Positions 7,026 through 14,020 of a stretch of DNA of 64,000 nucleotides are shown in pieces. The notes under the pieces are model-generated. The model searched no databases and was not told where the DNA came from. It was given only the letters and a program-made list of their open reading frames with translations. The DNA lies in NCBI RefSeq assembly GCF_013402815.2, contig NZ_CP058601.1, positions 62,001 through 126,000 on the forward strand. The letters are read 5' to 3'. Made by a program: the position numbers and the translations under genes. The stretch is from Natrinema halophilum. GTDB taxonomy: Archaea > Halobacteriota > Halobacteria > Halobacteriales > Natrialbaceae. Each line of letters begins with the position of its first letter. The first letter of the stretch is position 1.

Positions 7026-7682
7026 TCACCGAACCAGCGCACCGAACACTCGCTCCTCGATCTTGCGGAGGTGTTCTCCGGCGGTCGCGGGTGCAATTCC
7101 AACGGTTGTCGCCACGTCTTCGTGCGTCGCCTGCCGGGGTGCATTGTAGTATCCGACTTCGACGGCCGCTTCGAGCACCTCCCGCTGTCGAGCCGTCAGT
7201 TCCCTCGTAAACGATCCCTCATCCGGTTCGTACGTACCTGTCTTGACGACCTCGAACGTTACTGCGGCCGCGTCAGCGGCGTATTCGAACAGCTCCCGCA
7301 AGTCTGACTCGCTTCCCAGATACGTTATTCGAAGCGACCCGTCGGACGTAATGCGGATCGGCATCTCGAGGATCATATCCGACTCCCGTTCGAGTTCCAG
7401 TATCCGGCGCGTTACATCCGTTGGCTCGAACTGACTCACCGCCATCCACCGCGTCCCCCCGGAGACGAGATAGTCGATGACTGCGGGAGAATCCCGCATG
7501 ATCTCCTCGTAACGAGTCTTGTCGCCGCTTCCCTCGGCGAGCAACAGTACCGTTCCGTCGGGAAGGAGTTCGACGTTGTGAATCGCTTCTCGTTCGATCG
7601 ACGGCTCGTCCGAGAGAGCTCGACCGAGCGGATGGAACCCGCTGCTTTCAGCGGGGTGGGCGAGCACCGTGAGATAGCGCAT
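7026..7682 (-). CDS. Bat-like HTH-10 family transcription regulator
   Basis: Putative DNA-binding regulator of 218 aa in the bacterio-opsin-activator (Bat/HTH-10) family of Halobacteria. The N-terminal 155 residues form the sensor-like domain of this family. The C-terminal HTH-10 domain (about 163-215) has the signature LTARQREVLEAAVEVGYY and ends in EHLRKIEERVFGAL. It is divergent from the FAD monooxygenase at 7769 with only 86 bp between the starts, so control of that gene is plausible. The codons for HPAESSGFHPL near the N-terminus form a perfect hairpin at 7638-7655. Confidence 0.88.
   Translation of the reverse strand: MRYLTVLAHPAESSGFHPLGRALSDEPSIEREAIHNVELLPDGTVLLLAEGSGDKTRYEEIMRDSPAVIDYLVSGGTRWMAVSQFEPTDVTRRILELERESDMILEMPIRITSDGSLRITYLGSESDLRELFEYAADAAAVTFEVVKTGTYEPDEGSFTRELTARQREVLEAAVEVGYYNAPRQATHEDVATTVGIAPATAGEHLRKIEERVFGALVR
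7638..7655. repeat. Perfect 7-bp hairpin inside coding sequence
   Basis: CCCGCTG-CTTT-CAGCGGG lies within codons 10-16 of the HTH-10 regulator. It looks like the short hairpins seen at ends of haloarchaeal IS200/IS605-type elements, but it could be chance in GC-rich DNA. Confidence 0.5.
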
Positions 7683-7768
7683 ACGCGAGGACAGACACGG
7701 GTGTCGGACTTAAAGAACCGCGAATAACTTGCAGCCGGCGCTTCGTCGACGCCGCCGAAGAATGGCGT

Positions 7769-8968
7769 ATGAACGACAGCCAGACGACGTCCGATATCGC
7801 CATCGTCGGCGGCGGAATCTGTGGATTAACCACCGCGATCGCGCTCGAGCAACGGGGACTGTCGCCGACCGTTTACGAGGCGGCGTCCGAGTACCGACCG
7901 ATCGGTGCCGGACTGCTCTTGCAGACCAATGCCCTCCTCGTTTTCGACCGCCTCGGCATCGTCGACCGCGTTCGGGCCGCAGGCGTCCCCCTCGAGGACG
8001 TACAGATTCGGTCTCCGGACGGACGGGTACTCCAACGATTCGATCTAGACGGACTCGAGCGTCGCGACTTCGGATACGGCTACGTCGCGATTCATCGCGG
8101 TGACCTCCAGCGGATACTCCTGGACGAATTGAGTACCGACGTCGAAACTGGAATGGCGTGTACGGACGTTACCGGGACGGAATCGCCGGCCGTCCTGTTC
8201 GACGACGGGACGCTCGTTCGTCCTGACGTTCTCATCGGAGCGGACGGCATCGACTCCGAGGTCCGGAACGTGATCGCCCCGGACGTCGAACTGCAAGCGC
8301 TTGATAGCGTCGTCTATCGGGCTATCGCCGAGATCGAGTCACTCGACCGCCATCGCAGGCTCGGATTCGAGGTCTGGGGTGACGGAACGTACACCGGCGG
8401 CGCACCGATCGCCTCCGATCGGTTTTACTGGTTCGCGACGGTTCAGAAAGGAGCGGCAGACGCGATAGATTCCCGAGAACTGACGGCGGTGCTTCGCGAC
8501 CGATTCGCCGAGTTTCCGGATCCGGTCCCGTCCGTGCTCGAGTCACTCGAACCGGCGGATGTTTTTCGGACGGATCTAACTGACGTTCCCTCGCTCGACC
8601 GATGGTCCCGGGGCTCCGTCGTGCTCGCCGGTGATGCGGCACACGGCATGGTGCCGTTTGCCGGGCAGGGTGCAGCACAGGCGATCGAGGACGCGCTTAT
8701 GCTGGCGCATTCGATCGATCGCCACGGGACGCCGGCCGATGCGTTCGAGGCGTACGAAGCGGAGCGAAAGACGAGAGCCGACCGAATCCGCGCCGAGGCA
8801 CGCAGACTCGGGACCCTCGGGACGATGCGTTCGAGCATCGGTTGCCGAGTGCGAAATTTCGCGGTCGCGCACCTTCCGGCCGCGCTTTTCCACCGGTTTC
8901 GTCTCCGACGGATGTCCGGTACCTCGCTTCCCGAGGCCGCCACCTGTGACCCGTTCTCGAGGAGATAA
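7769..8968 (+). CDS. FAD-dependent aromatic-type monooxygenase
   Basis: Flavoprotein hydroxylase of 399 aa, class A (p-hydroxybenzoate hydroxylase fold), cytoplasmic. Visible motifs: dinucleotide-binding IVGGGICGLTTAIAL at residues 9-23, the middle DG-type motif IGADGIDSEVR, and the second FAD motif GDAAHGMVPFAGQG at about residue 288. Such enzymes use NAD(P)H and O2 to hydroxylate or epoxidise a substrate; the substrate cannot be read from sequence. The length is normal for the family. It is divergent from the HTH-10 regulator with an 86-bp shared promoter region, suggesting local regulation. Confidence 0.88.
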   Translation: MNDSQTTSDIAIVGGGICGLTTAIALEQRGLSPTVYEAASEYRPIGAGLLLQTNALLVFDRLGIVDRVRAAGVPLEDVQIRSPDGRVLQRFDLDGLERRDFGYGYVAIHRGDLQRILLDELSTDVETGMACTDVTGTESPAVLFDDGTLVRPDVLIGADGIDSEVRNVIAPDVELQALDSVVYRAIAEIESLDRHRRLGFEVWGDGTYTGGAPIASDRFYWFATVQKGAADAIDSRELTAVLRDRFAEFPDPVPSVLESLEPADVFRTDLTDVPSLDRWSRGSVVLAGDAAHGMVPFAGQGAAQAIEDALMLAHSIDRHGTPADAFEAYEAERKTRADRIRAEARRLGTLGTMRSSIGCRVRNFAVAHLPAALFHRFRLRRMSGTSLPEAATCDPFSRR

Positions 8969-9124
8969 CGCACGACGATCGGAACACGCGAGTGTACGTT
9001 CGACACCAGACTAAAGTCGCTGTCGTCGACCGGCCAGGACCGGATCCGAACCCGTGTTTGCGACCGGTCGACGTCGGTACATCGCTGCGATACTCGAATC
9101 AGTACTGGATGCGACGATTTGGAG

Positions 9125-9448
9125 CTAGTCACCGCGCTCGTCACGGATAGTAAGCCGCCCGTCGTCGCTGATTTCGATGGCATACCTGTTCTCGCTTGCG
9201 ACGTCGAACGAAACGACGACCTCGCCGAGACCGCTTCCGCGGGAGAGAATCGTATCGAGGGCCCCCGGATCGATGTGATCGTGAAGGACGAATCCGACAT
9301 CGGCCGGGGCACTCATCGGGCTACTATCTTCGAGATCACAGATTGCCTGAACCACAGCAATACTTGGCGGGATCTCATCTCCGAACCGGTACTCAGTTGC
9401 GGATCGAGATCTCTCCGAGATGTATTTGTTTATTCGTGTATCGATCAT
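9125..9448 (-). CDS. HalOD1 output-domain protein
   Basis: A 107-aa protein consisting of a single HalOD1 domain, a haloarchaeal output domain often fused to or encoded near signalling proteins. Recognisable features are PPSIAVVQAICDLED near residue 28, the central FVLHDHIDPGALDTIL, and the closing DDGRLTIRDE. The biochemical role of the domain is unknown. It has no partner in the immediate neighbourhood. The start at 9448 follows the family's usual short N-terminus. Confidence 0.8.
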   Translation of the reverse strand: MIDTRINKYISERSRSATEYRFGDEIPPSIAVVQAICDLEDSSPMSAPADVGFVLHDHIDPGALDTILSRGSGLGEVVVSFDVASENRYAIEISDDGRLTIRDERGD

Positions 9449-9700
9449 ACATTACTCCTGGTGGATGAGACGAGCATCACAGGAAAGACGGTTGGGCGTG
9501 GGTTAGCAAGCGCTCATTGTTTTGGAAGACGCATTAAATACTTTTTTCGAGCGAGTCGATACATCGTCGGGTCGGTCGCGACTAGAGGGTCTACGAGTCC
9601 GGAAGACGGAGCAGAAGGGACGTATTCTGAGACGTGTATATCGATTCGTCATGAACTATACCGTCGTTGAAACGATGTACCCACCGCTCACACTGCTGCG

Positions 9701-9720
9701 GCCAGCGAGAACTCGCTGGC
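9701..9720. repeat. Perfect inverted repeat with 9-bp arms
   Basis: GCCAGCGAG-AA-CTCGCTGGC. It could be an operator or a hairpin in RNA. No coding feature explains it. Confidence 0.7.
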
Positions 9721-9745
9721 TGCGTATTCATCAGGGGGGTGCACA

Positions 9746-9832
9746 ATGACGTTCAACGACTACAATAGCGCTCGACCCACTGTCGTGGCGAAATCAGTCC
9801 TCGAAGTGGGGAATCACCGCGGACGGACGTAA
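9746..9832 (+). CDS. Possible 28-aa peptide
   Basis: Short frame beginning MTFNDYNSARPTVVAK, with a Shine-Dalgarno-like GGGGGGTG about 5 nt before the ATG. Unrecognised. Its only support is the ribosome-binding site and the lack of any other gene here; it may be debris. Confidence 0.15.
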   Translation: MTFNDYNSARPTVVAKSVLEVGNHRGRT

Positions 9833-10018
9833 CCCAGTCGTTGGCACCACTCGTAGTCACGAACTTTGCCAGGGAACGATCCTCGCATCCGGAAAAGCGC
9901 TCGCTCTCTCTGTAACGACGGTGCAATACTTTCGATCCGTGTAGCAAACGATGGAGAGCAGGGATCTGCGACCGATACGTCTCACCCTGTATCGATTTCG
10001 TCGTTGGACGCCTTCCTG

Positions 10019-10156
10019 CTAGAGGAGCAGAAAGACGATCCAGGGGACGACGAACAGAGCCAGCGTCAGCACCGCGAGGATTAGTAGGTACCCGATGCCC
10101 GTCCCCGCCGCGGTGAGCCACGACGGATGCTCGAACTCGCCGAGATTGACTGCCAT
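10019..10156 (-). CDS. 45-aa single-pass membrane protein
   Basis: A short protein. The N-terminus MAVNLGEFEHPSWLTAAGTG is followed by one long hydrophobic helix (about residues 21-45) ending at the stop. Such tail-anchored small proteins are common in Halobacteria; the function is unknown. It is on the same strand as the zinc-finger gene 100 bp upstream. Confidence 0.65.
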   Translation of the reverse strand: MAVNLGEFEHPSWLTAAGTGIGYLLILAVLTLALFVVPWIVFLLL

Positions 10157-10483: not shown

Positions 10484-10576
10484 TGGTCTTATATCCGGAT
10501 TCTAGGGCGTACTGATAGGGGCTTCCCTCGAACAGTTCAGTCTTTATGTGCACGATCGAGATCTGGTTTCGGACTG

Positions 10577-10584
10577 CTTTTACC
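10577..10584 (+). promoter_or_regulatory. TATA box of guaAA
   Basis: CTTTTACC is centred about 27 nt before ATG 10608. It predicts a leaderless transcript and favours 10608 over the longer frame starting at 10548. Confidence 0.55.
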
Positions 10585-10607
10585 GGGTGACCCGCTACGA
10601 CCACGCA

Positions 10608-11162
10608 ATGACGAAGATCGTCGTAGTGGACAATCACGGGCAGTTCACCCATCTAGAACGCCGGGCGCTTCGCGACCTCGGCGTCGACACCGAGTTGATC
10701 GATAACGACACGAACCCTGAGAAAGTAGCTGCTGACGGGGTTGTCCTCTCCGGCGGCCCGGACATGGACCGCACCGGGCGTTCTGCGGAATACCTCGAGG
10801 AGAATGTCCCGGTTCTGGGAATCTGTCTGGGGATGCAACTGATCGCCGAGGAACTCGGCGGCCGCGTCGGCGGGGGCGAGTACGGCGGCTACGCGGACGT
10901 AACGGTCGATATCGTCGACGACGACGACCCGTTAACCGGTTCGCTGTATCCTGAAACGCGTGTCTGGGCGAGCCATGCAGACGAGGTGAAGGAACTCCCG
11001 GACGGCTTCGAACTGACCGCGAAAAGCGACGTTTGCGACGTCGAAGCGATGAGCGACTCCGACCGGGATCTTTACGGCGTCCAGTGGCACCCCGAAGTTG
11101 CCCACACCGAACAGGGAGAGGAGATATTCGAGAACTTCCTGGCGATCTGCGAAACGCAGTAG
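10608..11162 (+). CDS. guaAA: GMP synthase glutaminase subunit (subunit A)
   Basis: Class I glutamine amidotransferase of 184 aa supplying ammonia to the separate ATP-pyrophosphatase subunit that converts XMP to GMP. It starts with MTKIVVVDNHGQF. The nucleophile is in GICLGMQL (Cys about residue 76), and the catalytic His/Glu are in WHPEVAHTEQG near residue 164. The split-subunit form is the archaeal arrangement. The longer frame from 10548 is rejected because of the TATA box position and family length. The partner subunit is not in this window. Confidence 0.93.
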   Translation: MTKIVVVDNHGQFTHLERRALRDLGVDTELIDNDTNPEKVAADGVVLSGGPDMDRTGRSAEYLEENVPVLGICLGMQLIAEELGGRVGGGEYGGYADVTVDIVDDDDPLTGSLYPETRVWASHADEVKELPDGFELTAKSDVCDVEAMSDSDRDLYGVQWHPEVAHTEQGEEIFENFLAICETQ

Positions 11163-11253: not shown

Positions 11254-11303
11254 AAGGCCCCTTCTGCTCACGGCTCCGCCGTTTGCATGGTCAGCGGGGC
11301 CTT
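11254..11303. repeat. Nested inverted repeat
   Basis: Outer arms AAGGCCCC (11254-11261) and GGGGCCTT (11296-11303) enclose an inner hairpin ACGGC-TCC-GCCGT (11270-11282). It sits about 90 bp past the stop of guaAA. It could act as a terminator hairpin or be a small palindromic element remnant. Confidence 0.7.
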
Positions 11304-11448: not shown

Positions 11449-11457
11449 TTTATAAAA
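11449..11457 (+). promoter_or_regulatory. TATA box of the exported repeat protein
   Basis: TTTATAAAA is a near-consensus archaeal TATA box. It predicts transcription from about 11480 and a leader of roughly 45 nt before ATG 11524. Confidence 0.65.
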
Positions 11458-11523
11458 ACAACAGTTATTTCCGGGGAAAATTACTATCGGGTCGTTGTTG
11501 ATCTCTCAGTCGGCGTGAGAGCC

Positions 11524-13236
11524 ATGACAAACAGAAACATACGGGCAACAACACTAGCTGCACTGGTATTGCTTTCAGTCGTCGCTGTCCCTCTCGGGGT
11601 TGTCGGGGCAAGTACCGATGCAGGACCAAGCGCTGAACGCGCTGTTACACAGAACGACGATCTGAGCCAGGTCATCACAAGCATCAACGACAACGAAATC
11701 GCGAACGCGAACGATTCGATCGCATCGTTCAACGAGCAATTACAACAGAAGGCTAGTCTCCTTAGCGTCGACGTCGAGAACGTCGACCAGGTCGCGACGG
11801 TCTCTGCTGAGACAGCCGCCGAAGCACAGGCGGAGGCCGACCGCCTCCGTACCGCTGCCGGCGACCGAGAAGCCGCCATCTTCGATCGGGTGGTGACGGT
11901 GATCAACGAAGGCGGCGTCGCGGACGTCGATCCGAACGAGGTACAATCGCCGGCCGACGCACGGGCCGTCTCCGACCGCCTCGAGCAACAGGGCGGCCTC
12001 GCCACGCAAGCAGCTCAGTCGCTGCGAGACGCCGCTGACCTCGTCGAAACCGATCTCGAGCCTAATCTTACGACTGCCGCCGAGAAACTGAGCGCCTTCG
12101 AGGCCGAACCGTCCACCGGGACGGTCGAAGGCACGGTCACCGATGGCAACGGTGGTGCGGTCACGAACGCGACCGTCGTTGTCGGTGACCAGCAGATGAC
12201 GACCGCCGACGATGGGGGCTACTCCCTCGATATCGATCCGGGAGAGTACACACTCGCCGTCTCAGCGGCGGGATATCAGGACGCCAGCGAGGCCGTGACG
12301 GTCGAAGCAGGCGCAACAGCGACCGTCGACGTCTCCCTCCAGGCGAAGGACGACGGTTCGGGAGATGATGGAACTGAAGATAACGAATCGGATACAGTCG
12401 CTGATGTCGTCACGAGTGTTAACGAGAACGAGATCGCGAACGCGAACGATGCGATCACGTCGTTCAACGAGCAACTCCAGCAGAAGGCAAACCTTCTCGG
12501 CGTCGACGTCGAGAGCGTCGAGACCGTCGCCGAAGTCGAAGCTACAACCTCTTCGGAGGGTCAGTCGGAAGCTAACCGCCTTCGAACCGCCGCAGACGAC
12601 CGAGAAGCCGCTATCTTCGATCGGGTGGTGACGGTGATCAACGAAGGTGGCGTCGCAGATGTCGATCCGAACGAGGTTCAATCGCCGGCCGACGCACGGG
12701 CCGTCGCCGACCGCCTCGAGCAACAGGGCGGCCTCGCCACGCAGGCGGCTCAATCGCTGCGAGATGCCGCCGACCTCGTCGAAACTGACCTCGAGCCCAA
12801 TCTTACGACCGCCGCCGAGAAACTGGCAGCTCTCGACGGCAACGAGTCGGAGCCGGCCATCGGCTTCATCGACGGTGTCATTACTGCCGCCAACGGCGAA
12901 CCGATCGCCAACGCGACCGTTTCCGTCGGTGAGCAACAGACGACTACTGCAGCCGACGGTAGCTACGGCCTCGAACTCGAGTCGGGTGAGTACACGGTTA
13001 CCGTCTCGGCCGAGGGTTACCGGGACGCCAGCGAGGAGGCAACGGTCGAAGCCAACGCGACTACGACTGTCGACGTGACGCTCACCGAAGCGAACGACGA
13101 TGGGTCGACTCCTGGCGAGTGTCCGGGGCCAGGACCGGGTCCGAACGACGGCTCCGATATCGTTTCCGCCATCTGGAACGCAGTTATCGACTTCGGAATC
13201 GAAATCGCTCAAATCGTTATCACAGGAGCTCGATAG
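11524..13236 (+). CDS. Exported protein with duplicated helical plus carboxypeptidase-regulatory-like units
   Basis: Secreted protein of 570 aa. It has a Sec-type signal peptide (hydrophobic core LAALVLLSVVAVPLGVVGAS, residues 11-30). Two tandem units of about 230 aa follow, each made of a helical Ala/Gln-rich region and a beta-rich domain of the CarboxypepD_reg/PEGA kind (ATVVVGDQQ, DPGEYTLAVSAAGYQDASE). About 80 residues starting at REAAIFDRVVTVINEGG are almost identical between units. It ends with an acidic linker, a Pro/Gly stretch with one Cys (GECPGPGPGP) and an amphipathic segment IVSAIWNAVIDFGIEIAQIV. There is no PGF-CTERM anchor. The function is unknown. The start at 11524 places the signal peptide at the N-terminus. 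Confidence 0.85.
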   Translation: MTNRNIRATTLAALVLLSVVAVPLGVVGASTDAGPSAERAVTQNDDLSQVITSINDNEIANANDSIASFNEQLQQKASLLSVDVENVDQVATVSAETAAEAQAEADRLRTAAGDREAAIFDRVVTVINEGGVADVDPNEVQSPADARAVSDRLEQQGGLATQAAQSLRDAADLVETDLEPNLTTAAEKLSAFEAEPSTGTVEGTVTDGNGGAVTNATVVVGDQQMTTADDGGYSLDIDPGEYTLAVSAAGYQDASEAVTVEAGATATVDVSLQAKDDGSGDDGTEDNESDTVADVVTSVNENEIANANDAITSFNEQLQQKANLLGVDVESVETVAEVEATTSSEGQSEANRLRTAADDREAAIFDRVVTVINEGGVADVDPNEVQSPADARAVADRLEQQGGLATQAAQSLRDAADLVETDLEPNLTTAAEKLAALDGNESEPAIGFIDGVITAANGEPIANATVSVGEQQTTTAADGSYGLELESGEYTVTVSAEGYRDASEEATVEANATTTVDVTLTEANDDGSTPGECPGPGPGPNDGSDIVSAIWNAVIDFGIEIAQIVITGAR

Positions 13237-13510: not shown

Positions 13511-14020
13511 ATGATGACGGTCGACACAGTCGGACGGTTCGAACGAGCACTCGAGGGACTCGAGGTGGGCCTCGAGCGCGTCCCGGCCGCTGACGCGAGC
13601 GGGAGGATCGAAACGATCGCTCAGGGGCCGGTCGTCGGTACCCCACTTCCGTTCGAGGGGGTATCGCTCCCGGATTCGGTCAGGACGGAGCCGACCCCTG
13701 CCGAACTCGAAGCGGCCAGAACCGGCATTACTCCAGTTAGATTCGCGATCGCAGAGTACGGCACGGTTGCCATCGAATCGACCGCCGACGGTACAGAACC
13801 GATCGCTCTCTATCCTGATCGTCACGTCGCCGTCGTCGCAGAGAGAGACGTGGTACCTGATCTGAGTGCCGGCTTTGAGCGCCTCGCCGACGGCTTCGAC
13901 GAGGGTCGAACTAGCGTCGTCTTCGCAACGGGACGGAGCGCGACCGCCGACATGGGTGAGCTCGTTCACGGCGTACACGGTCCCGGCGACGTCCACGTGA
14001 TCGTCCTGGAGGACCGATAG
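13511..14020 (+). CDS. lutC: LutC-like LUD-domain protein
   Basis: A 169-aa LUD-domain protein of the LutC/YkgG family, part of the LutABC iron-sulfur complex that oxidises L-lactate to pyruvate. Family features include GITPVRFAIAEYGTVAIES in the middle and a C-terminal ATADMGELVHGVHGPGDVHV. Its stop is followed after 1 bp by the fused lutB-lutA gene, so they are co-transcribed. The start may be 13511 or the adjacent ATG 13514. Confidence 0.88.
   Translation: MMTVDTVGRFERALEGLEVGLERVPAADASGRIETIAQGPVVGTPLPFEGVSLPDSVRTEPTPAELEAARTGITPVRFAIAEYGTVAIESTADGTEPIALYPDRHVAVVAERDVVPDLSAGFERLADGFDEGRTSVVFATGRSATADMGELVHGVHGPGDVHVIVLEDR

Follow-up and report, generated by a model that had tools for sequence, protein, structure and literature searches.

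The open reading frame at 11524-13236 (+ strand) of the window, the whole 64,000-nucleotide stretch of Natrinema halophilum DNA analysed here, encodes a 570-residue protein that appears to be a short representative of a rapidly changing group of cell-surface stalk proteins. On balance, it is probably a secreted, cell-surface modular spacer (stalk) that is remodelled by unit gain, unit loss and gene conversion. Its two units, each a four-helix bundle (H) followed by a transthyretin-like beta domain (B), would project outward from the cell; at the C-terminus, a Pro/Gly linker and amphipathic helix would hold the protein at the envelope or pair it with a partner. Recombination between units would alter unit number, and gene conversion would homogenise the bundles. 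Domain architecture, orthology, variation in unit number and a localised conversion-like tract are shown computationally; we infer export, a surface position, an extended conformation, the role as a stalk and the job of the tail. The spacer role is suggested by repeats of two folded domains, the lack of a recognised catalytic domain, sequon enrichment in long orthologs, and anchored and S-layer-type relatives (L070 and L077, described below), and the surface location by relatives and by sequence character. Counted against this reading are the lack of a recognised anchor in the window protein, the statistically weak amphipathicity of its tail and the absence of the gene from a genome that is sister to that of the other two-unit ortholog.

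Domain architecture of the 570-residue protein

The coordinates and the two halves are as first described. The open frame extends 5' to an ATG at 11287, but the ATG at 11524 appears to be the better start, given that the signal-like segment begins there and that the approximately 75 nt immediately 5' align well in all seven orthologs, the window included. This conserved stretch (11449-11523) begins with a TATA-like promoter element, TTTATAAAA (11449-11457, + strand), named by resemblance only. The N-terminus, MTNRNIRATTLAALVLLSVVAVPLGVVGAS (11524-11613, + strand), is signal-peptide-like by eye, making export of the protein plausible. No Cys, and so no lipobox Cys, was seen by eye in this N-terminal segment, and the protein is not classed as a lipoprotein.

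The remainder consists of H1 (residues 45-195; 11656-12108), B1 (residues 198-275; 12115-12348), an acidic linker, H2 (residues 290-442; 12391-12849), B2 (residues 448-525; 12865-13098) and the tail, all on the + strand, such that H, B, linkers and tail account for the entire sequence. The initial annotation rightly proposed a regulatory-like beta domain in each half: a Pfam scan places two stretches of the protein in the carboxypeptidase-regulatory family PF13620, well above the curated cut-off (109.7 bits versus 32.3). B1 is further identified by predicted structure and fold match. The helical regions had been called Gln/Ala-rich, which describes them only mildly (17-19% Ala, 6-7% Gln). Both B domains resemble PF13620 proteins by sequence, and B1 also by predicted fold; the protein differs in alternating B with a helical bundle and in having no catalytic carboxypeptidase domain among the best 25 of 26 Pfam families matching at E<=1.

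Modelled alone with AlphaFold2, H1 is confidently predicted to be a four-helix bundle (pLDDT 94.4, pTM 0.87; helices at 2-35, 54-85, 99-112 and 115-146), and H2, with 81% identity to the modelled H1, is assigned the same fold. The H1-B1 unit, modelled from an input that included 11 further unit copies (one from the window, six from L066 and four from L067), reached a pLDDT of 93.7 and a pTM of 0.67; how H and B are placed relative to each other is uncertain at this pTM, and rigidity and extension of the unit would therefore be conjectural. The B1 model matches carboxypeptidase transthyretin-like domains closely (Z 13.8-13.4, 1.2-1.4 A over 77-78 residues) and also a beta domain of the Sulfolobus S-layer protein SlaB (8qox; Z 11.2, 1.6 A over 80). 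Overall homology to the Sulfolobales protein was not found, the SlaB NCBIfam family giving a partial match of 41.5 bits against a cut-off of 700, and a common B fold by itself shows no common function. H, on the other hand, returned nothing significant from Pfam (H1 alone, best E 0.089) or PDB sequences (best E 0.48), and no Foldseek match at E<=0.001 (best E 0.43). A second fold search with H returned generic bundles, such as talin, CdvB, copper storage proteins and ferritin, with a best Z of 9.2 (3.1 A over 108), below the level stated for helical bundles by the tool, which counts such a score as possible background.

Orthologs, unit number and a conversion-like tract

H1 and H2 share 81% identity over about 150 residues, and an independent repeat search recovered a 300-nt direct repeat with 81% identity and 735-nt spacing. 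As the initial annotation held, the halves are nearly identical in one part: 75 of 76 residues agree between residues 114-189 and 359-434 (11863-12090 in H1 and 12598-12825 in H2, + strand). Its description of the DNA as nearly identical is a little strong, with 213 of 228 nt and 62 of 76 third positions identical; 14 of the 15 differing codons are synonymous.

Full-architecture orthologs are present in six of the 28 other Natrinema species, one being a two-unit form with the same tail (G196) and five being long forms of 1431-2282 residues with three to six H domains; a scan of named genomes located two orthologous loci, in Natrinema ejinorense and N. salsiterrestre. Among the 29 genomes of the genus, 15 give some match, of which seven (window included) have the whole architecture and eight match mainly in a B domain. 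Unit number varies across the seven orthologs, with H/B counts of 2/2 in the window genome (G000) and G196, 3/12 in G203, 4/7 in G202, 4/13 in G204, 6/12 in G024 and 6/14 in G200, the B counts taking in partial copies and coming from a first iterated profile that mixed H and B. The two domains were separated by match length, and later searches used an H profile (A1). N-glycosylation sequons exceed shuffled expectation in all five long forms (e.g. 43 versus 15.1 +/- 3.4) and show a weak excess in the window protein (8 versus 4.8 +/- 1.9).

The gene lies between an upstream gene (10548-11162, + strand), which from the list of open reading frames and locus comparison we take to be a guaAa-like glutamine amidotransferase gene, and a downstream gene (13511-14020, + strand) that is presumably a lutC-like LUD gene, followed by a presumed lutB-like gene. 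guaAa and lutC directly flank the gene in G000 and G196; in G202, G203 and G204 both are nearby but separated from it by other genes on at least one side; and in G024 and G200 lutC lies roughly 6 kb downstream, with no guaAa seen in the stretch retrieved. In nine of the 22 genomes that lack the gene, the guaAa and lutC matches are 107-770 bp apart, and a search of the lutC loci of these 22 with the window protein (E<=0.01) detected no remnant of it within the 1.5-kb flanks covered. G197, the sister of G196 on the two-gene tree, has no ortholog, suggesting that the gene is dispensable there. Short and long forms fall in different parts of the lutB-lutC tree of 28 genomes, which has several weak nodes and leaves out G193, whose best lutC match is just 50% identical. 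A tree of 27 H units groups them by lineage (G000 with G196, G024 with G200, G202, and G203 with G204; support 0.81-1.0 on DNA and 0.77-1.0 on protein), except for one divergent unit common to G202, G203 and G204.

A comparison of the units of G000 and G196 gave 53 informative sites: 24 of ortholog pattern, 22 of paralog pattern and seven crossed. Codons 62-142 contain 14 paralog, no ortholog and one crossed site, and the remainder contains eight, 24 and six, respectively. The difference is significant by Fisher test (p 1.3e-6), an optimistic figure since the test was made after the longest-identical-run result and the tract bounds were read from the data; codon-block permutation (p 2e-5) is the safer one. 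The longest-identical-run test itself is not significant for the window genome (p 0.089), is significant for G196 (p 0.0012), and also gives p 0.019 for an ortholog pair. These patterns define a localised, conversion-like tract, and not a recent one, within which the near-identical stretch at 11863-12090 falls. From the ortholog-pattern sites outside it and the paralog pattern inside, the duplication appears to be older than the split between G000 and G196, the closest ortholog, with the central tract homogenised later.

The initial annotation had offered recent duplication or gene conversion, and of these only the latter is supported. That the halves were duplicated recently within this strain, or reflect an assembly effect, might be suggested by the 75 of 76 identical residues, but it is highly improbable: a second species, assembled separately, has the same two-unit form, ortholog-pattern sites lie on both sides of the tract, and third positions differ at 14 of 76 even within the near-identical stretch. 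Recent duplication was rejected on the site patterns. Efficient intermolecular gene conversion is reported in Haloferax volcanii in the available text of PMC11276520, making gene conversion plausible here, and the window protein would offer an archaeal example of a repeat protein evolving in concert through gene conversion.

The tail, anchoring and the wider H family

Following B2, the protein has a Cys-Pro/Gly linker, ECPGPGPGPNDGS (13117-13155, + strand), and a C-terminal segment, DIVSAIWNAVIDFGIEIAQIVITGAR (13156-13233, + strand), and it ends with GECPGPGPGPNDGSDIVSAIWNAVIDFGIEIAQIVITGAR (last residues QIVITGAR). The single Cys that the initial annotation saw in a Pro/Gly stretch is Cys 533, the only Cys after residue 30. 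The amphipathic character it gave to the final segment is suggestive only (hydrophobic moment 0.44; shuffle p 0.08, not significant), and its view that the tail carries no known sorting signal agrees with the Pfam and NCBIfam scans, in which no anchor was recognised; PGF-CTERM is not among the best 25 of 26 Pfam families or the seven NCBIfam families at E<=1.

The tail is a property of this ortholog group: Cys 533 is common to both short orthologs, and four of the five long forms lack any Cys downstream of the signal region. The tail probably matters in the short orthologs, as it is conserved between them (the Cys, and 12 identical positions among the 26 of the final segment), its function there being conjectural. 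A tail search of the genus gave, besides the window, only G196 below E 0.01; 12 of the 29 genomes match at E<=5, the best remaining at 0.52. Among ten tail-to-tail alignments scored against shuffles, G000-G196 and G202-G203 gave p below 2e-4, G000-G202 0.0026, G196-G202 0.033, G000-G203 0.047, and the other five 0.14 or more; descent of the short-form tail from the long form is only hinted at.

Within the taxonomic family, H profiles match 22 of 125 genomes, spread over 10 of 29 genera; of 391 genomes sampled from the class they match at least 23, in 8 of 86 genera. Some matches are partial, and the class count is a lower bound, with at most ten candidates scored per genome. Two of the 23 class matches lie outside the family, both weak, and no relative was found among the viral contigs searched. 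H would thus define a helical surface domain that appears nearly confined to one haloarchaeal family.

Relatives occur in several architectures. L070 combines a single H-B unit with a PGF-CTERM, above both Pfam and NCBIfam cut-offs, and so bears the anchor of archaeosortase-anchored haloarchaeal surface proteins, whereas the window protein ends instead in its Cys-Pro/Gly linker and amphipathic segment. A single unit with a recognised anchor is what the initial annotation had named as an argument against a special role for the tail, and such a role is weakened for the family as a whole. L072 is a second PGF-CTERM-like relative by eye, and in L077 H-B lies at the C-terminus of an S-layer-type glycoprotein, a 1575-residue open frame in which a surface-glycoprotein signal peptide and a BGTF surface domain each score above cut-off. 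Other H-B relatives, judged by eye, include multi-TM and Tat-lipoprotein or lipobox-like forms. Two adjoining H-B proteins of another genus (L068:3670-6024 and 7642-10131) comprise an 830-residue protein with a called cohesin domain and a 785-residue neighbour that resembles it by eye; their genome gives no Pfam dockerin match. The window's own genome encodes a second protein with two near-identical truncated H-like repeats (L075:3913-5550; C1 about 2301912-2303549); its start looks exported by eye and its C-terminus contains Cys.

Cohesins, dockerins and alternative roles

The protein might alternatively be freely secreted or reside in the envelope space, the tail serving for dimerisation via Cys 533 and not for anchoring. 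The lack of a recognised anchor and the single Cys that both short orthologs retain are consistent with this, as are enzyme accessory domains among the fold matches of B. We regard it as improbable given the single-unit relative with a called anchor, the others that look anchored by eye, and the lack of a recognised ligand-binding domain. It is possible, though unlikely, that the ortholog group are haloarchaeal scaffoldins, in which a cohesin on the long stalk of the long forms would capture dockerin-bearing polysaccharide hydrolases, the window protein being a cohesin-less form. All five long orthologs have a cohesin-like domain at their C-terminus (that of G204 judged by near identity to that of G203): Pfam cohesin is above cut-off in G200 and G024, and the domains of G202 and G203 are 65-67% identical to that of G200. 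A profile of six domains (four ortholog, two from G226) matched 14 PDB sequences at E<=1, 13 of them cellulosomal cohesins or scaffoldins; the best has a whole-chain E of 3e-5 with no single stretch passing, and the next has E 0.01. Dockerin matches (E<=0.001) occur in 11 of the 29 genus genomes, and those with at least five (G200 7, G202 15, G203 5, G204 5) all carry the long form, compared to one of the other 25 (hypergeometric p 2e-4, with the threshold chosen afterwards and relatedness ignored). Each of these four genomes includes a dockerin gene cluster, fetched from G200, G202 (in part), G203 and G204, and the cluster enzymes scanned in G200 and G203 are mostly GH5 cellulases (seven of ten proteins, eight from G200 and two from G203). 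Six of the seven also match dockerin, five of them below cut-off there, and the genome scan put most dockerins above it.

Several observations speak against the scaffoldin reading. The window protein has no cohesin among the best 25 of 26 Pfam families at E<=1, the domain of the G203 ortholog scores 16.5 bits, short of the Pfam cut-off of 24.1, and no cohesin was listed for the G202, G203 and G204 orthologs in the genome scan. G024 has the cohesin without a dockerin match, G195 has four dockerin matches without an ortholog, and in G226 a cohesin-like domain occurs in H-B proteins, yet none of the seven H-carrying genomes of other genera has a dockerin match. The clusters of G202 and G203 have a cohesin match of their own that could serve instead; that of G203 scored 26.2 bits in the genome scan and was unlisted at E<=0.01 in a direct Pfam scan of the whole protein. 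Like cellulosomal scaffoldins, the long orthologs join a repetitive stalk to a cohesin-like domain, but each has one such domain, at its end, the link to dockerins is co-occurrence only, and the window protein has none. It is a tentative and doubtful proposal that some Natrinema build cellulosome-like surface complexes from a giant H-B stalk, a terminal cohesin and dockerin-bearing cellulases with Tat-like signals, with stalk length tuned by unit recombination and the window species retaining a stalk without cohesin.

The long forms point to candidate cohesin partners for haloarchaeal dockerins. Such a partner would answer an open question, as a paper on mannan-degrading haloarchaea (PMC10963439) names dockerins four times and cohesin never in its main text; neither term occurs in the available text of PMC10267330. 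A literature search for Natrinema with 'cohesin domain' found nothing, and one for cohesin, dockerin and haloarchaea found, within the text available, only a general review.

Clusters of dockerin-ended proteins with Tat-like starts, beside an fn3/PKD protein, lie at L081:3161-19999, L082:2957-14341, L083:347-16135 and L086:778-15860; those scanned in L081 and L082 are mostly GH5 cellulases, and L082 and L086 also encode a 238-240-residue protein with a PGF-CTERM-like end by eye. Each of the 29 genus genomes has one cohesin match in an open frame of 263-504 residues (e.g. G000:C1:3553848-3554177), which in the window genome is the sole cohesin match and lies elsewhere than the 570-residue frame. 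The window genome also encodes a GH81-family enzyme whose C-terminus carries a dockerin-like domain (L084:1689-4337; C1 about 2473688-2476336).
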